A DNA stretch of 64,000 bases from Psychromonas sp. psych-6C06 (lineage in GTDB: Bacteria; Pseudomonadota; Gammaproteobacteria; Enterobacterales; Psychromonadaceae): the NCBI RefSeq assembly GCF_002835465.1, contig NZ_PIZM01000007.1:1-64000 (forward strand), read 5' to 3'. The notes beneath the pieces were generated by a model that saw nothing but the letters and a program-made list of their open reading frames with translations, did not search any database and had not been told where the DNA came from. The translations under genes were made by a program, and so were the position numbers. Below are positions 5,049-16,501 of this stretch, piece by piece (within the stretch, counting starts at the first letter, position 1; the number at the start of each line of letters is the position of its first letter).

Positions 5049-5615
5049 ATGAATCAAAAACAGTTAATAACCGGACTGATATTAGGTGCTGGCTTAACAT
5101 TCTCAGCATCAAGCTTTGCAGATGAAATTGTATTTACAGAAGATTTTAGCGGTGACTTTTCAAAGTGGCTTGGTAAAGAAGTTGAAGTTGATACGCCAAA
5201 AGGGAGTAAATTACAAAATTTAGACGTTTTGAGTAAAATTGTTGATGATCCTGTTCGTGAGGGAAAGAAAGCGGCTCAATCTACAGTGAAAGTATTTGGT
5301 GGCGACTTTATTAGTAAAGAAAGCTTTACACCGGGTAAATACACGCTCAGCTTTGATTACATGGGAACCTGTAAGCGAGACTGTGGCGGAGTAGTTGGTT
5401 ATGGAGAAGGGTTCCCTGGTGTTAAACATCATTGGCTAGCAGGAACGACGCGTGCTTTTCCGAAAGGGCTACGTGATAATAAAGGTTGGAAACGTTACGA
5501 GTTAGCGTTTAAAGCTAATTATGATTTCCATGTTATTTTCGAACAATGGACCGACTCAATTGGTGAAGAGGGAACGGTATTCTTTGCAGATATTGAGCTT
5601 AAGAAACACGATTAA
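5049..5615 (+). CDS. Secreted protein of unknown function, probable beta-sandwich
   Basis: The 188-residue protein has a clear signal peptide (cleavage probably after SASSFA, residue 24). The mature part begins DEIVFTEDFSGDFSKW and ends EGTVFFADIELKKHD, a pattern seen in jelly-roll, carbohydrate-binding-like domains (FxxDFSG start, FxDIEL final strand). Two cysteines lie close together in GTCKRDCGG (about residues 110-114). I cannot name a family. A good ribosome-binding site (GGAG) lies about 8 nt before the ATG. The gene stands alone and converges on the diguanylate cyclase gene. Confidence 0.75.
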   Translation: MNQKQLITGLILGAGLTFSASSFADEIVFTEDFSGDFSKWLGKEVEVDTPKGSKLQNLDVLSKIVDDPVREGKKAAQSTVKVFGGDFISKESFTPGKYTLSFDYMGTCKRDCGGVVGYGEGFPGVKHHWLAGTTRAFPKGLRDNKGWKRYELAFKANYDFHVIFEQWTDSIGEEGTVFFADIELKKHD

Positions 5616-5640: not shown

Positions 5641-7218
5641 CTATTCCTCATTATAAACATAACAGTTTCTGCCATTAGCTTTGGCTTTGTATAACGCACT
5701 ATCAGCACGCTTTATTAGCCTTTCAATGAGTTCCCCCTGCCATCTTATTGCCCCACCGATACTAATAGTTAGCGGTCTACCCGGTAAGAGATCAGACCAA
5801 TAAGCAACTTCTACTGCATTGCGAATTCGTTCTGCTAACCCCATTAGTTGTAATTCATTGGTTTCACATAAAATAATAACAAACTCTTCGCCACCAAATC
5901 GAATCACACTGTCAATTGGACGTATCTCTGAAGTTAATATATTAGCTAGCCTTTTTAAAACATGATCGCCAATTTGATGTGAGAAATCATCATTAACAGT
6001 TTTAAAATGATCAGCATCTATCATCAGTAGGGCATAGCTTTCATTATCATGTTTATTTTTTAAGGTTTCATCCATCCATCTACGATTGTAAACTTCGGTC
6101 AAAGGGTCAGTGAAAACATCATGCTGGAGTCGCTCAACCATATCATGTTGATCTTCAACCTGATCTTTTAACTCTTTATTTTCCAGTTGTGTATGCTGTA
6201 TTAACAATAAGCGCTGTTGCTTAGCCAATTTATTAAAGTATTCACATTCTAGGGTGCCAACAGGTATTTTATCTATCAAAGATAATTCAATGGCATGGGC
6301 TACTTTTTCATGCTTTAGTGCCATTTCAAATTCACCTAATTGTGCATAAGCATCACTCATTGCGTCATTAAACTTTTGCTCTAAGAAATCCAGACCAACA
6401 CCTTTAATACCTAGGAAAGTATCACTAAGTAAAGAGACAGCTTGATGGGCTTGGTTATCTGCAATTAAACAATTGCCATGCTCTAGTAAAAGCATGCTAC
6501 GAGTCCAAGTTTCTCCGCCATTTTTTAATAATTGATTACCTTTTTCTATCGCCTCTAAAGCCTCTTTTATATGATCCGTTTGACGTAATATCTTAGCTTT
6601 ATATAAATGTATTAATGCTTCAAATTCCAGCACAATTTCAAGCGTTTCATTACTAGCGCAAAAGTCTAAATATTTCTGTGCTTTATCATATTTTTTCAGT
6701 GATATATAACAGGCAACAATATGAAAGTTTAATCGAGCATGAGTAGTACCTGACTTAGATTTTTTAGAAAGCAGTTCAGCTTGGTTAAAAAAGTTTAATG
6801 CGCCACTATGCTCTGCGACAATCTCAAGCATTGATCCGATGCCCAAAAGTGCTTGGATGAAGAAGTCAACGTGTCCGACCTCAGCGCTGTATTCAGCAAC
6901 ACTCAGCCAATTTTGTGCAGCTTGCTCATATAAGCCAAGGTCATTGTTACGATAACTAAGGGTGGATAAAACCTGTAATCTGTCATCCGGTAAGGTATCT
7001 GTAGAAAAAAGGGCGATTGCTCTTTCTAAAGAAGCTACACTTTCATCGGTGTAACCTAGCTCAATCAGTATTTCCGACAGTAATAATTCACCATGTAGTT
7101 TTTCATTATTACGATAAGCTATTTTATCCACAAATTTTTTACATAATACTAGCGCTTCATTGAGGTTGTTATTTTTAAATTGCTTTCGTGCTTGTTGTAA
7201 CAAAGGCATATTTCCCAT
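5641..7218 (-). CDS. TPR-repeat diguanylate cyclase (GGDEF domain)
   Basis: The 525-residue protein is cytoplasmic, without membrane segments. Residues 1 to about 330 are TPR-like helical repeats, about 335-365 form a coiled coil, and the GGDEF domain occupies about 365-525: DPLTEVYNRRW, DADHFKTVND, and the active-site motif GGEEF within VIRFGGEEFVIIL. An RxxD inhibitory-site motif (RPID) lies five residues before GGEEF. It should make c-di-GMP and be subject to product inhibition. Its start codon overlaps the stop of the upstream TPR gene by one nucleotide (TAATG), so the two are coupled and probably interact. Confidence 0.92.
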   Translation of the reverse strand: MGNMPLLQQARKQFKNNNLNEALVLCKKFVDKIAYRNNEKLHGELLLSEILIELGYTDESVASLERAIALFSTDTLPDDRLQVLSTLSYRNNDLGLYEQAAQNWLSVAEYSAEVGHVDFFIQALLGIGSMLEIVAEHSGALNFFNQAELLSKKSKSGTTHARLNFHIVACYISLKKYDKAQKYLDFCASNETLEIVLEFEALIHLYKAKILRQTDHIKEALEAIEKGNQLLKNGGETWTRSMLLLEHGNCLIADNQAHQAVSLLSDTFLGIKGVGLDFLEQKFNDAMSDAYAQLGEFEMALKHEKVAHAIELSLIDKIPVGTLECEYFNKLAKQQRLLLIQHTQLENKELKDQVEDQHDMVERLQHDVFTDPLTEVYNRRWMDETLKNKHDNESYALLMIDADHFKTVNDDFSHQIGDHVLKRLANILTSEIRPIDSVIRFGGEEFVIILCETNELQLMGLAERIRNAVEVAYWSDLLPGRPLTISIGGAIRWQGELIERLIKRADSALYKAKANGRNCYVYNEE

Positions 7219-8678
7219 TACTCACAGCCCTCAATTTTGTCTAAGTAACTTTCTTTATTATCGAGGAAATCATCAATAGAAAAATATCTTACATTTAACC
7301 CCATGCCTGTTTTGCCTATTCGCCACCACGGATAAGCTAACAATGTCGCCTTTAAGTCATTCAGCATTTTACCTTGATTCTCCGGCCCAACGTCTAGCAA
7401 TAAGGCCAAACGATTGTTCTTAAAACGAGTAATTAATTCATGGGGCTGACAAAGAGCATGCACAATTGGCAGGATAGCAATTAGCTCCTTTTCGCTGTTC
7501 AACTCTAAAATAAACACCGTGCTATGGTTTTCAGTTTGTGCTCTTTGGCAAGCGTATAACCATATAGAGGCTTCTCTGAAAGCAGGGAAGCCACCTTCAG
7601 AAGCATTAAATGCACCAGCTTCTAATCGCCCAATCAACAGTTCTGCTTTATAGTTTAAAATATCAACCGTCAATTCACAGCGATCTTGCCCAAGTGCAAG
7701 ACTACGACTACGTAATAGTTTTATGCTGTATTTTCTGTATTTTTTAAAATAGAGCAACATTAACTCAGAAGCTTGTTGGTGGCTTTCTAAATCGAAACGT
7801 AATAGATAGAGTTGTGCTAGCAACTCTAATTGGTTAAAACGCAAGGCGACCGATTCCGCCTCATCTAAAAATTGTCGCGCTAGATTATATTTTTTAAGCT
7901 TAATTGCCACCATTGCACGACTAATGGGAGTATAGGTTTCAACCCATTGTCCTCTTACCTTGACCGTTTCTTTATCACGCTTTTGTGTTATCTGCTCAGC
8001 CTCTGCAAAATGTCCCAGCGTGGCTAAGCCCATACTTTTTAAATCTTGAATTTCTGCATGCCAAGTAGAGTCTGGGTGACCATATAAAAACGATTCTGCT
8101 TTAGCTAAAACTTCAAGCATAAGCGTATGTTGGTTTAATTCATTGAGCACCCTGCTTAATAAAATAGCACTTTGACCGGCCAATATATTAAAGTCATATT
8201 GCTCGGCTAAGGTCATTGCCAGTGACAATGCTGAATAAGAAAGTTCTAACTCTCTATTCACTCGCCAGATATTAGCAACGCCAATCAAGGATTCAATCTG
8301 TAAGTTGAGTTGATTATGAACTAACGACTTTTCCATCGCTAGGTTCCAAAAGTGGTGTGCGGAACGAAATTGCTCTAAACCCCAATACTGCTGAGCATAG
8401 ATATGATATAGCTCAGAGAGGTACTGGCTTTCAAATTCAGGTAACAGTAACTGTTCGGCTCGCCGACATAAATTTATCCCTTTATCGTATTGATTAAGGT
8501 GCCAAGCGATACGTGCTAGTTGCATAGTTGCAACTAATTGAGCACGATTTTCATTGAGTGCTTGCGCGCGTGAAAAAACACGCAATACCTTGGCTTCGGC
8601 CTGTTGAGGATTCTCTACGATTAGCGTTTCAATATCAGCCAAAGCGAGCATTAACGGACTATTATTTTCTGAGGTCAT
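7218..8678 (-). CDS. TPR-repeat protein with a probable degenerate GGDEF-like C-terminus
   Basis: The 486-residue protein is made of TPR-like helical repeats (for example residues 20-330), without signal peptide or membrane segment. Its last ~110 residues look like a GGDEF fold that has lost its signature: FILELNSEKEL resembles the strand with the metal-binding Asp, and ITRFKNNRLALLLDVG aligns with the RxGGEEFxxLL hairpin but has KNN in place of GGE. It would then be inactive as a cyclase and may act as a regulatory partner of the coupled downstream cyclase. The degenerate-domain assignment is my inference from pattern. Confidence 0.75.
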   Translation of the reverse strand: MTSENNSPLMLALADIETLIVENPQQAEAKVLRVFSRAQALNENRAQLVATMQLARIAWHLNQYDKGINLCRRAEQLLLPEFESQYLSELYHIYAQQYWGLEQFRSAHHFWNLAMEKSLVHNQLNLQIESLIGVANIWRVNRELELSYSALSLAMTLAEQYDFNILAGQSAILLSRVLNELNQHTLMLEVLAKAESFLYGHPDSTWHAEIQDLKSMGLATLGHFAEAEQITQKRDKETVKVRGQWVETYTPISRAMVAIKLKKYNLARQFLDEAESVALRFNQLELLAQLYLLRFDLESHQQASELMLLYFKKYRKYSIKLLRSRSLALGQDRCELTVDILNYKAELLIGRLEAGAFNASEGGFPAFREASIWLYACQRAQTENHSTVFILELNSEKELIAILPIVHALCQPHELITRFKNNRLALLLDVGPENQGKMLNDLKATLLAYPWWRIGKTGMGLNVRYFSIDDFLDNKESYLDKIEGCE

Positions 8679-8894: not shown

Positions 8895-9641
8895 ATGAAC
8901 TTTCTGGGAAATAAACATGGTGGCATGGAGTATAAAGCGTCTTTAGTGGTCCGCTTATGCATCTCGCTGTGTTTGTTATTCAGCACCTTTATGTGCGTAG
9001 CGGCAGACACAAAGGCAAGCAATGAAGCCGACGCTATCATCAAGAGCGACACCTCTGCAACTACATTAGATGACGTAAAGGCATTGCTTGATCAACAGAT
9101 AGCGGAATGGAACGAAATGAAACCCGCTTTAAAACGCTTAATTCAATCCGAAAAAGATTTAGCTTTAATCATTGATGCTTTAGATAAAACAACCCCAGTC
9201 GCGTCATCACCAAGTGATCAACAATTACTAGAAAGCCCTTCCCTCACTTTACCCATCGCTTCTAAAAAAACATCAGATAAACAGGAAAAAGTGGCCACTA
9301 TCAATCCTATTACTATTAAGAATAAAGTCGATATTGCTCTAGCCGCTGACAGTGAAAAAACAGTCACAACAACCGTTCAGATAGGCGTTCATTTGGCTTC
9401 TTACCAAGAGGTCAGCAATGTGGAGCCCGGCTGGAAGATGATTAAAAAGCGATATAATCAATGGTTAGGTGATAAAACCCCCTTCTATTATCAAATGAAT
9501 GTTGGCCAACAAGTTTTCACTCGTCTCGTCGTCGGCCCATTTAATAGTGAAGAACACGCCAAAGAAGCCTGCCAATTACTACAACAACATCAGCAATATT
9601 GTCAGGCAGTCAGCTATAAAGTGCTATCAAAAAGTTTATAA
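8895..9641 (+). CDS. Secreted SPOR-like protein, first gene of the fimbrial locus
   Basis: The 248-residue protein has an N-terminal hydrophobic export signal (LVVRLCISLCLLFSTFMCVAA). It carries the motif AEWNEMKPALKRLIQSEKDL (about residues 74-93), which recurs in the lipoproteins at 15272 and 15929, then a polar linker, then a SPOR-like domain (about 163-245): VQIGVHLASYQEV, VFTRLVVGPFNSEEHAKEAC and QYCQAV, with a cysteine pair. SPOR domains bind septal peptidoglycan in other proteins. ATG 8895 has an AGGTG site; 8925 is an alternative start. It lies 240 nt ahead of the pilin-like gene on the same strand. Confidence 0.75.
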   Translation: MNFLGNKHGGMEYKASLVVRLCISLCLLFSTFMCVAADTKASNEADAIIKSDTSATTLDDVKALLDQQIAEWNEMKPALKRLIQSEKDLALIIDALDKTTPVASSPSDQQLLESPSLTLPIASKKTSDKQEKVATINPITIKNKVDIALAADSEKTVTTTVQIGVHLASYQEVSNVEPGWKMIKKRYNQWLGDKTPFYYQMNVGQQVFTRLVVGPFNSEEHAKEACQLLQQHQQYCQAVSYKVLSKSL

Positions 9642-9880
9642 AAACGACTTCTGTGAAGTGCCCAACAATAAAAACACTTTATAGCTCACAAAAAAATTAC
9701 TCACTAGGCAAGACAGTTAAAGTTACACCATACTTTGCCGATAAAACTCCTATTACGGCATGATTGCTTGCATCTAGCTCAGTTCTTATCGCATTCAGTT
9801 TTTTGCAATTTAAACACCATTAACTACGATTAAACCAATATTAAAAATCTTATTTTTCTAACCAGAAAAGGTGAAAACAT

Positions 9881-10549
9881 ATGAACAAGACGTTATTAAC
9901 TACGACAAAACTGCTCGGCGTAACGGTTTTATTATCAGCAACAACAAGCGCAGTTGCTGTTGAGTCGGTGACATCAACAGCAACAGTGACAGTACAAAAT
10001 GCATTTACCTTTTCAGAAGGAGCTGCGCTAGATTTTGGTACAATTCGAGCAGCAGCAGTGGCAGCCGGTGATGCTACCAATGGCTCAGACACCGGTGCCA
10101 GTGGTGGTACAACCCCTGACGTCGCAAGCCTAACATTAGCGTCTATTGATGCAGGCACATCTATCGTCGATGGTGCAACTGCTGCAATACAAATTTTAAC
10201 ACCTGGGACTGCAGGTACTTACACCATTGCAGGTGTTGCGCCCTATTCAACACTGACCATCACATTACCGACAGCAACTTCGGCAGCGGCCATTAAACTC
10301 ACCTCAGGAAGTGTTCCACCAGGATCCGCTTATTTCTGGATGTATGACTTTGAAGCAACCGTCACCAGTGGCACGAAAAATGGAACCGCCTATTCGACAG
10401 CGGGTGATCTCACCGCTGATTTAAATGGAGATGCTAGCTTTAGTGTCGGTGCAACATTAGCGACCTCTCATCCCGCAACTGCAAGCGCGCAGGCTGGATA
10501 TCAGGATGTTGCTTACACTGGCAGTTACACCATTACTGTCGATTATTAG
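9881..10549 (+). CDS. Probable major fimbrial subunit, DUF4402-type
   Basis: The 222-residue protein has a signal peptide ending near TTSAVAVES and a mature part rich in Ala, Thr, Gly and Ser. The N-terminal strand pattern ATVTVQNAFTFSEGAALDFG and the terminal strand DVAYTGSYTITVDY are typical of DUF4402-type pilin-like subunits of chaperone-usher systems. There are no cysteines in the mature part. A strong ribosome-binding site (AAGGTG) lies 7 nt before the ATG. Codon and residue bias suggest high expression; a hairpin follows the gene. It should be exported, capped by the chaperone at 11242 and polymerised through the usher. Confidence 0.8.
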   Translation: MNKTLLTTTKLLGVTVLLSATTSAVAVESVTSTATVTVQNAFTFSEGAALDFGTIRAAAVAAGDATNGSDTGASGGTTPDVASLTLASIDAGTSIVDGATAAIQILTPGTAGTYTIAGVAPYSTLTITLPTATSAAAIKLTSGSVPPGSAYFWMYDFEATVTSGTKNGTAYSTAGDLTADLNGDASFSVGATLATSHPATASAQAGYQDVAYTGSYTITVDY

Positions 10550-10571
10550 CTTTGTGCTACAGCACTATATA

Positions 10572-10601
10572 ACTAAGGCATAGTGATTCACGTGCCTTAG
10601 T
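10572..10601 (+). terminator. Hairpin after the major subunit gene (attenuator or mRNA-stability element)
   Basis: Perfect 9-bp stem ACTAAGGCA/TGCCTTAGT with a 12-nt loop, 23 nt after the stop of the major subunit, followed by a weak pyrimidine stretch (CTCTTT). Such a structure in a fimbrial operon commonly lowers transcription into the minor subunit, chaperone and usher genes or protects the subunit mRNA. Confidence 0.55.
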
Positions 10602-10737
10602 CTCTTTATCGACATAAATGACATGCTAATAGAAAAATAAACTATTTACATAAAATTGAATGCATCTCCCTGTTTTACTTATCTTTACATCTAGAATGTA
10701 ATGTACCTGTTAGCACAATGTCACTGGAAGTAGCCGT

Positions 10738-11214
10738 ATCTTTAACTATCTTACTATTAAAACACTCTGTTATTTTGCATTGATATTAGTGCCTACGCAG
10801 GCTTTTTCTGGAATTATTGTCGAAAGGAAACTCTCTTTTGGCACGGTCGTGGTCACAGATAATAGCAGCGTGAGTAGCGTAACCGTTAACTTAGTCGATG
10901 GAAAAACATTATCAAACAATAAATTACGCGTTTTAGTCCCGGGGCAACTTGGTGAATTTACACTGATAGACTTTCCTCCCTACACACAGTTATACATTAA
11001 CGCTGTAATTTTAAGCTCAGAAACCACCAGCGATGATTACTCTCCCAGCCAATTTACCTTAGATAATATTACTACCTTACCCACGATCACAGTTAATGAG
11101 AGTGGCATTGCTACCCTTTTTATCGGTGGCACTTTATCCACCTCTGGTGATGGCACTAACCAATACATTAATAGTAATTATGATGGTATCTATAACATCT
11201 CTATTAGTTATTAA
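10738..11214 (+). CDS. Second DUF4402-type fimbrial subunit, non-canonical start
   Basis: The mature part ends NYDGIYNISISY, matching the final strand of the major subunit, and contains the related core LRVLVPGQLGEFTLIDFPPYTQL. It is probably a minor or tip subunit. The only standard start codon in frame is TTG at 10780, which would give a poor export signal. The frame is open from the TAG at 10711; reading from ATC at 10738 gives a proper signal peptide (FNYLTIKTLCYFALILVPTQAFS), and GGAAG sits 7 nt before it. ATT at 10756 is another option. The start is therefore uncertain: rare start codon, point mutation or sequence error. Confidence 0.65.
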   Translation: MFNYLTIKTLCYFALILVPTQAFSGIIVERKLSFGTVVVTDNSSVSSVTVNLVDGKTLSNNKLRVLVPGQLGEFTLIDFPPYTQLYINAVILSSETTSDDYSPSQFTLDNITTLPTITVNESGIATLFIGGTLSTSGDGTNQYINSNYDGIYNISISY

Positions 11215-11241
11215 TAACACTTGTAAAGGAAATTTTTAGAC

Positions 11242-12075
11242 ATGAAAAACCGCTCCTCATTAATGCTCAAAATAACCATTTTATTGTTGCTATTTAGCCA
11301 CTCGATGCTTCAAGCTGCATTACTTATCTCTCCTACAAAAATAAAATTGGAAGATAGAGAGCGTGCAACGCAACTTATTTTAATAAACACCTCAGACGCA
11401 CCGATCACCTATCGTTTGTCATGGGAAGAAAAAACCGTTTCTGACAAAGGAAAATATCAACAACTTACAGAGCAACAGCTGACTACCTTTCCCAGCGCCA
11501 GTAACATGATTCGTTTTAGCCCTAAACAGGTAAAATTAAAGCCAGGATCACGACAAGTAATTAAAATTGCAGTGCGTCGTCCAAAGGATCTACAAATGGG
11601 TGAGTACCGTTCACATTTAAAATTAAGTGCGGTGCCGGATGAAAGAGAAAAACCTCAAAACAATGAAATGTCAATTAAAGCAACCATGCTATTTAGCTAT
11701 GTATTACCCGTTATTGTTCGTAAAGGTGTTGCCACTTCTGCGGTGACGATTACCGATATTTCTCTTAAAAATAAAACCGAGAAAACCCCAGTACAATTGA
11801 TTGTACAGATGAAAAATAAAAGTAAATATTCAACCACAGGAAATTTAATTGCCTATTTAGCTGATTCAAATGGCAATGAGGAGGTTATTGCACGACTACA
11901 TGACTTTACTTTTTATCCCGACAAAAACCGCACCCAAGCACAGCTTGTTTGGCTTGATAATTGTAAAAACAAATGCAGCGGGCGATTACGTGTCGCCTTT
12001 GAAGGAATCAAAGAGAATATAGGTAAAATATTTGCAGAGCAGCAGATAGATATTAATGCAGATAGTTTCAAGTAA
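11242..12075 (+). CDS. Periplasmic fimbrial chaperone (PapD-like)
   Basis: The 277-residue protein has a signal peptide (cleavage near SMLQAA). The mature sequence begins ALLISPTKIKLEDRERATQL, the usual first strand of pili-assembly chaperones, followed by LINTSDAPITYRLSW and FSPKQVKLKPGSRQVIKI, the G1 donor-strand region with alternating hydrophobic residues. It should cap DUF4402 subunits by donor-strand complementation. A pair of cysteines near the end (NCKNKCSG) is unusual. It lies 27 nt after the second subunit gene and 3 nt before the usher gene, so it is clearly in one transcription unit. Confidence 0.87.
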   Translation: MKNRSSLMLKITILLLLFSHSMLQAALLISPTKIKLEDRERATQLILINTSDAPITYRLSWEEKTVSDKGKYQQLTEQQLTTFPSASNMIRFSPKQVKLKPGSRQVIKIAVRRPKDLQMGEYRSHLKLSAVPDEREKPQNNEMSIKATMLFSYVLPVIVRKGVATSAVTITDISLKNKTEKTPVQLIVQMKNKSKYSTTGNLIAYLADSNGNEEVIARLHDFTFYPDKNRTQAQLVWLDNCKNKCSGRLRVAFEGIKENIGKIFAEQQIDINADSFK

Positions 12076-12078
12076 TGA

Positions 12079-15000
12079 ATGATGTATAGAGCAATCTGCA
12101 CACACTACACACGATGCCTTATTATATTGTTGCTTACTTTTAATAGTCAGGGACTATTTGCAGCCCCTGAAAACAAACTATCGATAATATCAATTGAGCA
12201 ATTACTGTTATCGCCTAACTTAGTTAATAATTTAAAACAGATTGAAAAAAAACAAAGCCTAACACTTCAAGAGATAGACACTACCTCCCCGACAGAAAAT
12301 AGCTCTGCTATTCCTGCTGGCGAAGATTTGATTCTCTCGTTATACATTAGTGAATCGAAATATAGCTCCCTATATATCGCTGACATTTTCGCAATAAAAA
12401 GCGAACAAGGGGCGAAATTAAGCCTTCTCTCTCTTTTTGAGTCTCTCGACTTTCCAATAGCGGTTAGTGCGCGCAGTAAAAATATAGAAGGCTGGTTTAT
12501 CAAGGAAGAGAATACTTTTAAACTGCAACAGCCAACGAATGAAACACAGACGCTAAACGTATTACTAGCAGATAATCAATATAGCTTATCAAAGGAAGAA
12601 TACTTAGTGATCGACGATGATATTTTTGTCGAAGCAACATCTATTGAACAGTGGTTTGACCTTACATTTACCTTTAGCTTTGCCGATCAAACTGCACATA
12701 TTAGTACTCAATCTCCATTACCAATACAGATGGCTATAGCGCGTAGAAACAAACTAAACAACACAGGTTATAGTAATAAAGCAGTGTTACCATGGAAAGA
12801 GAGCACTTATCAGCCTATTTCTGCACCTCTACTTGATGTTCAGTTAAACGGCTCGATCAATCAAGATCAAGTTTATGGTAACTACTCATTACTCAGCGTC
12901 CAAGACATCGCTTATTTAAGTAGCGAGTTATACCTCAGTGGCAATAAATTTGAACCACTCAATAACGCTCGACTCACCTTTTCTAAAGAAGATGAAAACA
13001 AAAGCTTATTAGGCCCATTAAAAGCAAGCCGATATCAATTTGGAGATGTTACTCCAGTTAAGTTAGCAAATAGTAGTACCAGCAGTGAGAATGTTGGCTT
13101 TCGTTTTTCCAACCAAAATACTTCGCTAGGAAGCGATAATAAAACTACAACCATCAGTGGAAATATTCAAGCAGGCTGGGATGCAGAACTTTATCGCAAT
13201 GGTTTATATGTTGATAGGCAGTTAAATATTCAAACAGGGCGATATGATTTTAGAGATGTTGAACTCTACTTTGGTGAAAATCAATTTGAAATTATTCTTT
13301 ATGGTCCACAAGGACAAGTACAGCAAGTAAGCCAAGATTATTATATTGATAGCAATGTTTTAAAGGCGAAAGAGAGCATCTATGACTTCTCTGTTACAAA
13401 AGTAGACAAATCACTGCTAGGCATTTCCAATGCACGTAAAGCCGGCGTAAAAGGCTGGCAAAGTGCGGCTGTTTTCAGTGTTGGTTTAACCAATAACCTA
13501 TCTACGACAGCAGGAGCCTCTTACTTTTTTAATGAACAGGGTGAAGATTTATTCCAGTACTCTATTGGAGCCAGTTTTACGCCTATTAATCAATTAATTA
13601 TTTCAGCAGATTACCAACGAGATAATCTCGATAACGACAGTATTACACTTTCAGGTCGCACGTTATGGTACGGACAATCCTTTTCACTTAACTACGCCAA
13701 AAATAGATTTATTAAGCGCCAAGATAACATCGTCAACAATGCGCAAAACTATACCTTTATTATGAGTGGTGAAATATTTTCAAAGACACCTCTGCCACTC
13801 TATTATCAAAATGATTGGCGACATTCACAAACAGACACGGGCAGTGAATCAAATTCATTTACCAATCAACTATCATTAAGGAATCGCTTTGGCGGTATCT
13901 CTAATCAACTAACTTGGTTAGAGACAAGTACACTAAATGTTGAACAACAATCTTTATTTGGTAGCCTAGAGTTACAAAAACATTTTTCACGCCTATATAC
14001 ACGCCTAACAAGTAGTTACCAGTTATCTGATCATAGAGAGTTTACCTTAATCAAGGGTAATTTATCCTATCCTTTAGCGGAAAAATTAAGTGCAACATTT
14101 GACCTTAGCTATACCCTAGCCAATGACCGATACCGGAGTAAACTAGGGCTAAATTGGTCATTAGAAAACATGATACTAAGCTCTACTGCAACTCATGATA
14201 GCGATGATAACTGGTCTATTGGCCTATTCACCTCCTTTGGGTTTGGTTATGAACCTACCACTAGTGAACTATTTATGGCCAAAGGCTCTATCGCACGAAG
14301 TGGCACACTGGTAGCACGAGTATTTGAAGATGATAATCTGAATGGCCAATTTGATGAAGGCGAAACATTATTAGAAGGAGTCAAAGTCAAAGCACAGCAG
14401 AGTCATCGACAAGGTTATACTGGTAAAGAAGGAACTGCTGTTTTAAATAATTTACCACCAGGCAGAAGAACCGATATTGTTGTTGATACAAAAACCATTG
14501 CAGATCCCTTTATTATCCCTGCGACCCCAGGTGTTTCCATCACAGCACGTAAAGGCTTAATTGAAGTATTAGATATTCCACTGGTTAATGCAGGTGAGTT
14601 AGAGGGAACGGTTTATTTAAATAACAAACAAAATCAAGAGAAAGCCGGTGCCTATTTAAAAGTCAATTTACATGACCAAAATGATAAACTCGTCGCCTCC
14701 ACTGAAACAGAGTTTGACGGTTACTATCTATTTACAAATATTGTTCCAGGAAAATACACTCTGTCGATTGCTCCTGAAGAGTTAGAAAGAAAAAACCTAC
14801 ACGATGCTCAGATACAAGCATTTGAGTTTAGTGCGGCAGGAGATGTTATTGCAGGAGCCGATATTGTTGCGATGCGCTACACTTTTGTAAAAGGGTATGT
14901 GGTTGATCTTGGTGAGTTTAATTCTTTAACTATGCTCAAAGTATACTGGCAAATAATACAAGAAAAATATAATAACACACTGCAGCAGCAAGTTTTTTAC

Positions 15001-15138
15001 AGCAAGCTAGAAGATGAAAAAATGTTTCGTTTGAATGCGGCCTTTTTCAAAGGGCAATCTCAAGCAATACGAGCCTGCGAGTATTTACAAGATATGCAGA
15101 TAAGTTGCACCGTTAAAGCTTTTGAATTCAAAATTTAA
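12079..15138 (+). CDS. Usher-like outer-membrane protein with C-terminal Sdr/CnaB-like and SPOR-like domains
   Basis: The 1019-residue protein has a signal peptide (to about GLFAA, residue 30) and two small N-terminal domains (LSLLSLFESLDFPIAV; DIFVEATSIEQWFDLTFTF, about 110-215). A long beta-barrel part follows (about 250-740), with a plug-like segment AELYRNGLYVDRQ and IILYGPQGQVQQV. At about 750-930 lie beta domains with an Sdr-like calcium loop, EDDNLNGQFDEGETLLEG, and FDGYYLFTNIVPGKYTL. The last ~75 residues (from VVDLGEFNSL) are SPOR-like, ending ACEYLQDMQISCTV. Size and position next to the chaperone suggest the secretion pore. The C-terminal SPOR-like part is not a feature of FimD/PapC ushers. 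Start 12079 or 12082. Confidence 0.75.
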   Translation: MMYRAICTHYTRCLIILLLTFNSQGLFAAPENKLSIISIEQLLLSPNLVNNLKQIEKKQSLTLQEIDTTSPTENSSAIPAGEDLILSLYISESKYSSLYIADIFAIKSEQGAKLSLLSLFESLDFPIAVSARSKNIEGWFIKEENTFKLQQPTNETQTLNVLLADNQYSLSKEEYLVIDDDIFVEATSIEQWFDLTFTFSFADQTAHISTQSPLPIQMAIARRNKLNNTGYSNKAVLPWKESTYQPISAPLLDVQLNGSINQDQVYGNYSLLSVQDIAYLSSELYLSGNKFEPLNNARLTFSKEDENKSLLGPLKASRYQFGDVTPVKLANSSTSSENVGFRFSNQNTSLGSDNKTTTISGNIQAGWDAELYRNGLYVDRQLNIQTGRYDFRDVELYFGENQFEIILYGPQGQVQQVSQDYYIDSNVLKAKESIYDFSVTKVDKSLLGISNARKAGVKGWQSAAVFSVGLTNNLSTTAGASYFFNEQGEDLFQYSIGASFTPINQLIISADYQRDNLDNDSITLSGRTLWYGQSFSLNYAKNRFIKRQDNIVNNAQNYTFIMSGEIFSKTPLPLYYQNDWRHSQTDTGSESNSFTNQLSLRNRFGGISNQLTWLETSTLNVEQQSLFGSLELQKHFSRLYTRLTSSYQLSDHREFTLIKGNLSYPLAEKLSATFDLSYTLANDRYRSKLGLNWSLENMILSSTATHDSDDNWSIGLFTSFGFGYEPTTSELFMAKGSIARSGTLVARVFEDDNLNGQFDEGETLLEGVKVKAQQSHRQGYTGKEGTAVLNNLPPGRRTDIVVDTKTIADPFIIPATPGVSITARKGLIEVLDIPLVNAGELEGTVYLNNKQNQEKAGAYLKVNLHDQNDKLVASTETEFDGYYLFTNIVPGKYTLSIAPEELERKNLHDAQIQAFEFSAAGDVIAGADIVAMRYTFVKGYVVDLGEFNSLTMLKVYWQIIQEKYNNTLQQQVFYSKLEDEKMFRLNAAFFKGQSQAIRACEYLQDMQISCTVKAFEFKI

Positions 15139-15153
15139 CCCAGTAAATGATAT

Positions 15154-15180
15154 TTGAGATGATTAAACGGTCTCTATAAT
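15154..15180 (+). promoter_or_regulatory. Possible promoter for the SPOR lipoprotein genes
   Basis: TTGAGA (15154-15159) and a perfect TATAAT (15175-15180) separated by 15 nt, which is shorter than the ideal 17. It lies about 90 nt upstream of the lipoprotein start at 15272, so this gene could be transcribed apart from the usher. Confidence 0.35.
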
Positions 15181-15271
15181 ACAATGCAGTAGCAACTCAT
15201 AGCGATAAAGTGTTCGCTTTTTAATTCCTTTAGTAATAACACTAGAGGTTTCGCCAATGTAAGGAACGTCG

Positions 15272-15868
15272 ATGTTTAACAATTATTGCTTTTTGCTCTT
15301 ACTCATAGTCGCATTATCAGGCTGCAGTAATACACAGCAAGCACAGCAGAAAACAGCGCAACAAACGCTTGTAACACAACAAGCGATGCTAATGGATAAA
15401 GTCGAATCTCTTGAACAGGATATCGAGCAATGGAAAAATGTAGCGCCTAATGTACAACGATTAGTGGCGATAGAAAGTGAATTAACATTATTAATCACGC
15501 AACTTAATGCCATCATTGCGCAGGCAGAAAAAAAAGAACACCAAAAAAACAGTGCTATTACACAAATAAACGCTCCCAAAAATCCGATTAATTCGACTAA
15601 CAGAAACTATGCAGTGCAATTAGCATCGATCAATGATCCTACTGTACTACCTTCACTATGGATTAAAACCACTAAAAACAACCCTAATATATTCAAAGAG
15701 ATGGAGCCAATAGTTGAAAAAATATCAGTCAATCAACGCGATTATTACCGACTTAAAGCGGGTTCTTTCGGCTCTAAAAGTGAAGCAACACAGGTATGTA
15801 AAAAACTCAAAAAAATTGCAGTAAACTGCCTAATTAGCCCTGCTACTGGTGAGCCTCTTGACTATTGA
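15272..15868 (+). CDS. SPOR-like lipoprotein 1 of the fimbrial locus
   Basis: The 198-residue protein has a lipoprotein signal (lipobox LSGC, Cys 18). A Gln-rich coiled coil follows, then the locus motif EQWKNVAPNVQRLVAIESEL (about residues 51-70) and a C-terminal SPOR-like domain (about 112-195): NYAVQLASIND, YYRLKAGSFGSKSEATQVC and VNCLIS, with the same cysteine pair as the other members. With no Asp after the lipid Cys, outer-membrane sorting is expected. AAGGAA precedes the ATG. It probably spans from the outer membrane to peptidoglycan and supports the fimbrial machine. Confidence 0.8.
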   Translation: MFNNYCFLLLLIVALSGCSNTQQAQQKTAQQTLVTQQAMLMDKVESLEQDIEQWKNVAPNVQRLVAIESELTLLITQLNAIIAQAEKKEHQKNSAITQINAPKNPINSTNRNYAVQLASINDPTVLPSLWIKTTKNNPNIFKEMEPIVEKISVNQRDYYRLKAGSFGSKSEATQVCKKLKKIAVNCLISPATGEPLDY

Positions 15869-15928
15869 TAGCCATTTAACTTTGACTGTATTTAGGCTAA
15901 AATATCGGCTCAATTTTAATAAGGGATT

Positions 15929-16501
15929 ATGATGAAATTTAACGTAAGCGCAACGATGTTATGTGCAATAACATTAACAATCACAGGCTGTAGCAACACT
16001 TCCCAGCCCTCTGCAGAGATGCAAAAGATCACCAATCAGCAAACAGAAATTGAAATGCTTAAAACACAACAACAAGCACTTCAAGATGAATTAAACGCAC
16101 TACAAGCGATGCAAAGTGATGTAGAGCGTTTAGTTGAACGCGAAGCAGAACTGAATAAGCTTATTCAAGAATCAAAAGATCTTGCTAAAGAAAATAAAAT
16201 GAAAGCGATACAAGAGAAACGTAGACTACGTGATGCGCGTCCTTTCTTTATGCTACAAACGGCCTCATTAAATAGCCTTGACGATCTAAAAAATGCATGG
16301 CAATTACAACAGGAAGAGTACCCTGAAATTTTAAATGGCTTACCAGCACGTTACCAACAAGTTGAAATGGCGGGTAGAGAATATTTTCGCTTAAAATCAG
16401 GCGAGTTTGACCATAAAGGGGACGCAGTAATGACCTGTGAAATGTTAATGGACCTAGGCGCAGACTGCATTGTGGTTAATAACAAAGGCATTAAATTCTA
16501 A
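15929..16501 (+). CDS. SPOR-like lipoprotein 2 of the fimbrial locus
   Basis: The 190-residue protein has a lipobox (TITGC, Cys 21) and a predicted coiled coil (about residues 30-100). The latter includes ALQAMQSDVERLVEREAELN, the counterpart of the motif in the genes at 8895 and 15272. A SPOR-like domain follows (about 105-190): FFMLQTASLNSLDDL, YFRLKSGEFDHKGDAVMTC and ADCIVV. It appears paralogous to the lipoprotein just upstream (60-nt gap). AAGGGA precedes tandem ATGs at 15929 and 15932; either may be used. Last gene of the fimbrial locus, followed by a bidirectional terminator. Confidence 0.8.
   Translation: MMKFNVSATMLCAITLTITGCSNTSQPSAEMQKITNQQTEIEMLKTQQQALQDELNALQAMQSDVERLVEREAELNKLIQESKDLAKENKMKAIQEKRRLRDARPFFMLQTASLNSLDDLKNAWQLQQEEYPEILNGLPARYQQVEMAGREYFRLKSGEFDHKGDAVMTCEMLMDLGADCIVVNNKGIKF

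Follow-up and report, generated by a model that had tools for sequence, protein, structure and literature searches.

To our knowledge, a chaperone, an usher and subunits suffice for a chaperone-usher pilus, such as those built through FimC/FimD or PapD/PapC, and no attachment to the cell wall is involved. According to the 2019 structure paper on RlpA, every known SPOR protein has its role in division or morphogenesis (PMC6895207). Here we describe a locus of Psychromonas sp. psych-6C06 in which an usher and SPOR domains occur together. The locus lies at positions 8895-16501 of the 64,000-nucleotide stretch that was analysed (positions 1 to 64,000 of contig NZ_PIZM01000007.1; hereafter the window), and its genes, all on the + strand, begin with one for an exported SPOR protein, followed by two for pilin-like proteins, one each for a chaperone and an usher, and finally two for SPOR lipoproteins. 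The window comes from a 3.7-Mb genome, of which the nearest named relatives are Psychromonas. We regard the locus as a new, widespread and apparently undescribed variant of chaperone-usher systems, in which the usher itself ends in a SPOR domain.

A first-pass annotation had noticed a shared pattern, with cysteine-flanked helices, in three stand-alone genes and at the C-terminus of the usher. All of the genes are present where it had placed them, and the four helices that it quoted were found in the translations. The SPOR nature of the stand-alone genes was borne out by profile searches with PF05036 (curated cut-off, 21 bits), in which all three passed the cut-off: the genes starting at 8895, 15272 and 15929 scored 26 bits (E = 1.1e-5), 36.3 bits (E = 7.4e-9) and 21.4 bits (E = 3.2e-4), respectively. 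The usher tail of the window (residues 936-1018; 14884-15132), searched alone, stayed below the cut-off (17.2 bits, E = 0.0066), but PF05036 matches 13 of 51 orthologous usher tails (best E = 5.4e-9). In a whole-genome search, the usher tail of the closest relative (G011; in what follows, G and L labels denote the genomes and loci, respectively, of the relatives compared) scored 33 bits (E = 2.9e-7), and more distant tails reached 38 (G196), 31 (G109), 26 (G186) and 24 bits (G098). In profile-profile comparison, the downstream SPOR genes formed the link: the usher tail matched them with prob 97.9 (E = 3e-13), and they in turn matched housekeeping SPOR domains with prob 97.5 (E = 6e-12), the direct match of the tail to housekeeping domains being weak (prob 30, E = 5e-4). 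The tail is predicted to fold as beta-alpha-beta-beta-alpha-beta, both in an AlphaFold2 model of the full usher and in a separate model of the tail, the pLDDT of which was about 89-96 across the domain. When the latter was compared with 350,542 PDB chains by Foldseek, the SPOR domains of DedD and CwlC were the top two matches (prob 1.00, E only 0.011 and 0.016). Structure prediction, proposed earlier as a check, has thus recovered a SPOR-like fold, and the usher tail is a divergent SPOR domain. Among the relatives, 35 of the 37 downstream proteins and 14 of the 21 upstream ones matched SPOR in Pfam.

The usher (12079-15138, 1019 aa) was not recognised as such by any sequence library (Pfam, NCBIfam and PDB-sequence searches). 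An NCBIfam scan gave no match above the cut-off, and PDB sequence searches with usher, chaperone and pilin profiles were uninformative (SdrD, antibody and WxLIP matches). Its AlphaFold2 model, computed from an alignment of 56 usher sequences (mean pLDDT 85.8), matched FimD (3rfz_E) with E = 2.4e-29 and prob 1.00 over 918 columns in Foldseek, and PapC with E = 1.8e-23. An N-terminal domain and a beta-barrel are followed by SdrD_B/carboxypeptidase-regulatory-like domains (PF17210 in two stretches, PF13620), which occupy the expected place of the usher C-terminal domains. As the SPOR tail is located behind these domains, it is an addition to the usher, and it should face the periplasm if the usual usher topology applies. 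The PapD-like periplasmic chaperone (11242-12075) matches PF00345 just below the cut-off (E = 2.9e-4), and 24 of 26 orthologues match the family (best E = 2.3e-9). WxLIP_PGBD, a peptidoglycan-binding family, was rejected for this protein as a mere fold likeness, since its sub-cut-off E-value was the same as that for PapD_N and only 5 of 26 orthologues matched. Neither of the two pilin-like subunits (9881-10549 and 10738-11214) has a Pfam match of its own. The DUF4402 label (PF14352) given to the locus beforehand is correct for the pilin family, as 37 of 44 related pilins match it, although the window pilins themselves fall below Pfam detection; the first is homologous to the matching pilins, and the second finds relatives in phmmer at 1e-40. 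With a FimD-type usher fold, a PapD-like chaperone and two exported subunits of one family, the locus is a chaperone-usher locus with a true usher, as had been supposed. The start of the second pilin gene is uncertain: no in-frame ATG was found, and translation could begin at TTG 10780, which shortens the signal peptide, or at ATC 10738, which has good spacing from GGAAG. An unusual start codon, a start mutation and a sequencing error are alternatives.

The gene set recurs in many genera, as a survey of the kind called for by the first-pass annotation revealed. A search of genome contigs with the single usher sequence gave no match, but the usher alignment used as query detected at least 561 stretches encoding usher relatives; the best 80 were retained, making 81 loci with the window. 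They come from Pseudoalteromonas, Shewanella, Paraglaciecola, Alteromonas, Bowmanella, Rheinheimera, Glaciecola, Colwellia, Thalassomonas, Catenovulum, Vibrio, Marinomonas and others, the nearest being those of Psychromonas sp. Urea-02u-13 (L085) and P. hadalis (L086). A SPOR-tailed usher is present in 79 of the 81 loci, a frequency inflated because the ranking favoured loci with an usher resembling a tailed one. Separate SPOR genes, one to three per locus, were likewise found in 79 of 81; these were not part of the query, and their frequency is free of that bias. The chaperone is present in 79 loci and exactly two pilins in 74, while no SPOR gene was detected among the ~960 other flanking open reading frames of the 81 loci. 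A profile built from only the housekeeping SPOR domains of the same genomes recovered the same SPOR genes. In an even draw of 395 genomes from the order, 12 carry an usher of this clade.

The SPOR domains of the locus share a private pair of cysteines, C-x9-C, in helix 2 and strand 4 (Cys1000 and Cys1010 in the window usher). The pair is invariant in all 217 domains inspected (71/71 downstream, 63/63 upstream and 83/83 usher tails); a disulphide between the two cysteines is probable and would hold helix 2 and strand 4 together. In the alignment, the helix cysteine is absent from housekeeping SPOR domains; the cysteine pattern noted earlier is therefore a hallmark of the locus subfamily, not a general SPOR feature. 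The residues of RlpA that contact glycan are Q270 in strand 1 and R309 in strand 3, and the matching Q251 and R285 matter in FtsN (PMC6895207). The downstream SPOR domains mostly keep both (Gln in 55/71, Arg in 54/71), and about half of the upstream domains are canonical (Gln in 32/63, Arg in 25/51). Both residues are absent from the usher tails of the clade, without exception (83/83). As the canonical residues are kept mostly downstream and are absent from the tails, it is likely the lipoproteins that grip the wall, with the two downstream ones as the best candidates, whereas the tail of the usher probably serves for docking. The earlier proposal of four SPOR domains tying the machine to the wall holds as far as the four folds are concerned, but four equivalent wall binders would be an overstatement.

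More distant ushers, beyond the clade, carry tails of the canonical kind, with YYVQLAAF in the single tail of L178 and LQLGSY in a tandem pair in L179, which makes a wall-binding ancestral tail probable. Most simply, the usher would have been the first to carry a SPOR domain that binds the wall, a job that later passed to the lipoproteins. A quick usher tree computed with the tails removed, with SH-aLRT as the only support measure and long branches flagged, placed the tail states in few groups, the tandem-tailed ushers forming a separate one. Separate usher lineages with C-terminal SPOR-like domains, partly in tandem, were also seen in L047, L048, L053, L054 and L179; in these loci no SPOR gene was observed apart from the usher. 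A related usher (L184:1203-4298) has a hydrophobic C-terminal end (LRMFAFLAFMLLLAGWLMYRAG), which is odd in an outer-membrane usher.

Both downstream SPOR proteins carry a lipobox. The first (15272-15868) has LSGC followed by Ser, a SPOR domain at 15599-15835 that keeps Gln and Arg, and a lipobox cysteine, Cys18, that is invariant. The second (15929-16501) has ITGC followed by Ser, a SPOR domain at 16241-16477 and an orthologue in L020 (E = 1.5e-67). The upstream protein (8895-9641, 248 aa), counterparts of which are encoded in most related loci, is composed of a signal peptide, a helical RLxxxExxLxxLI-like motif, a linker and a C-terminal SPOR domain (9393-9608) with the cysteine pair; the helical motif ahead of the linker is shared by the accessory SPOR proteins. 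A lipobox was found in 61 of 71 downstream and 46 of 61 upstream genes, and none of these 107 lipobox proteins has Asp at +2. By the usual sorting rule, lipoproteins without Asp at +2 go to the outer membrane, and those of the window, with Ser at +2, are accordingly predicted to reside there. In the upstream protein of the window, Cys34 aligns with the lipobox cysteine, but the lipobox is atypical (TFMC), and the product may therefore be a soluble periplasmic protein.

We consider it rather probable that the locus encodes a chaperone-usher pilus system of which the outer-membrane assembly platform is tied to peptidoglycan. The outer-membrane lipoproteins would reach down toward the wall by their helical stalk and linker, and their SPOR domains, with Gln and Arg kept, would hold naked glycan strands. 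The usher tail, which has lost the contact residues but conserved the fold, could dock on the SPOR lipoproteins or on the wall in some other way. In this way the wall would hold the platform in place when the pilus is pulled, perhaps where naked glycan abounds, as at the septum and young poles. Several points weigh against this reading. The upstream SPOR domains and the usher tail are partly or wholly devoid of the canonical residues, and SPOR folds may serve protein contacts; the ranking described above favoured tailed ushers; and the reduced loci described below are not accounted for by a role as pilus anchor alone. Moreover, glycan binding and localisation, like the formation of a complex and the production of pili itself, are inferred.

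A special case of the wall-tied platform is a septal or polar pilus, which we hold to be possible but doubtful. Amidases lay glycan bare at the division site; the lipoproteins would bring the usher there, and pili would be made at the septum and inherited at the new poles. SPOR proteins of E. coli reach the septum via denuded glycan (PMC6895207), and the downstream SPOR domains keep the contacts that this would take, yet the usher tail itself does not, and naked glycan is not necessarily confined to the septum. A general wall anchor would fit the sequence data equally well as a tie to division sites.

Slightly harder to accept is that the SPOR folds are mainly protein-protein modules, the tail and lipoproteins forming a periplasmic collar that gates or times secretion, with no more than residual wall binding. 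Such a collar would account for usher tails that keep the fold and the cysteine pair throughout the clade after losing Gln and Arg, and for upstream domains that are only half canonical, and the common RLxxxExxLxxLI motif suggests a shared docking partner. The canonical state of the downstream SPOR domains in most genomes is, however, hard to explain without glycan binding.

Two reduced loci, L021:7688-10630 (G008) and L022:7564-10708 (a second locus in G011), retain a SPOR lipoprotein and a shortened SPOR-tailed usher, and have lost the pilins and the chaperone. Their ushers, of 774 and 800 residues, keep the barrel and the SPOR tail without the N-terminal and C-terminal domains. In the usher tree they are sisters nested within Psychromonas; both have open frames and signal peptides, yet they are only 35% identical to each other. 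No chaperone of the locus family was found in G008, which is assembled in one contig, and the reduced pair of that genome thus cannot run the normal chaperone-usher pathway with such a chaperone. A broader proposal, which we think unlikely, is a class of chaperone-usher systems in which the usher is a SPOR protein in its own right and which are built on the wall where glycan is naked, the pilus part being dispensable in some lineages, where a wall-tethered barrel and a SPOR lipoprotein would persist with another function. It is distinctly improbable, in our view, that the conserved core is a wall-tied outer-membrane barrel with its own job besides pilus export, from which pilins and chaperone can be lost. 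Intact pairs despite deep divergence, their sister position inside Psychromonas and the missing chaperone of G008 would suit such a barrel, but of the 24 genomes of the genus only two have reduced loci, which may be slowly decaying remnants, and nearly all other loci keep chaperone and pilins. A chance neighbourhood of SPOR genes and a fimbrial locus is hardly credible: apart from the abundance of SPOR genes (3-10 per genome) nothing was found in its favour, and it is refuted by the recurrence in 79 of 81 loci, the lack of SPOR genes elsewhere in the flanks, the fusion to the usher and the private cysteine pair.

As for the surroundings of the locus, two divergent TPR proteins are encoded upstream on the - strand (5641-8678). 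One ends in a GGDEF-type domain with an intact motif (FGGEEF) and the other is apparently degenerate; a similar pair adjoins the locus in L020 and L086. Control of the pilus by c-di-GMP is possible, judging from the GGDEF-type neighbour. An exported protein of 188 aa (5049-5615) matches MAM-like sequences weakly (E = 0.01). On the opposite strand, 3' of the locus, lies a gene called RelA-like from the look of its sequence alone, and the same RelA-like gene adjoins the reduced pair in G008 as well. Matches to sigma-70 promoters were at chance level.

The first-pass annotation knew of no fimbrial system of this form, and in the open-access literature we also found no description of SPOR domains and an usher joined in one system. 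Annotation databases, like subscription journals, lay outside the search, and annotation pipelines may thus already label single genes. DUF4402 was not found in any paper of the open-access literature searched; the few papers containing both SPOR and usher concern other topics, as far as titles, abstracts and term counts tell; and a biofilm proteome of Pseudoalteromonas tunicata mentions neither SPOR, usher nor DUF4402.

A SPOR-usher pilus system would be an exception to the role of SPOR proteins in division and morphogenesis only. The presence of the clade in many marine Gammaproteobacteria makes it testable whether pilus platforms are wall-anchored, and whether a surface structure can be positioned by the glycan of the division site. 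Lipoproteins of the FlgO family (PF17680), known from the flagellar region, adjoin 56 of 80 loci (e.g., L041, L044, L090, L096, L099 and L129), in several arrangements and paralogue groups; in 32 of the 56, the stretch examined contains none of the other flagellar genes in the tested set. In Psychromonas, FlgO was ruled out as a part of the system in the window, as the single FlgO per genome stays with FlgT/FlgP, away from the pilus locus. The locus resembles FtsN, DamX, DedD and RlpA in having a C-terminal SPOR fold behind a membrane anchor and a linker, with Gln and Arg mostly kept in the downstream lipoproteins. It differs from them in being encoded with a pilus and in usher tails that lack the glycan-contact residues; the two cysteines of FtsN, moreover, lie in strands 1 and 4, unlike the C-x9-C pair found here. 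With the FimC/FimD and PapD/PapC systems the locus shares a PapD-like chaperone, a FimD-fold usher with a barrel and periplasmic N- and C-terminal domains, and small exported subunits. Its subunits, in contrast, belong to DUF4402, its usher has no sequence match to the Pfam usher family, and an extra SPOR domain on the usher is combined with one to three dedicated SPOR proteins per locus.

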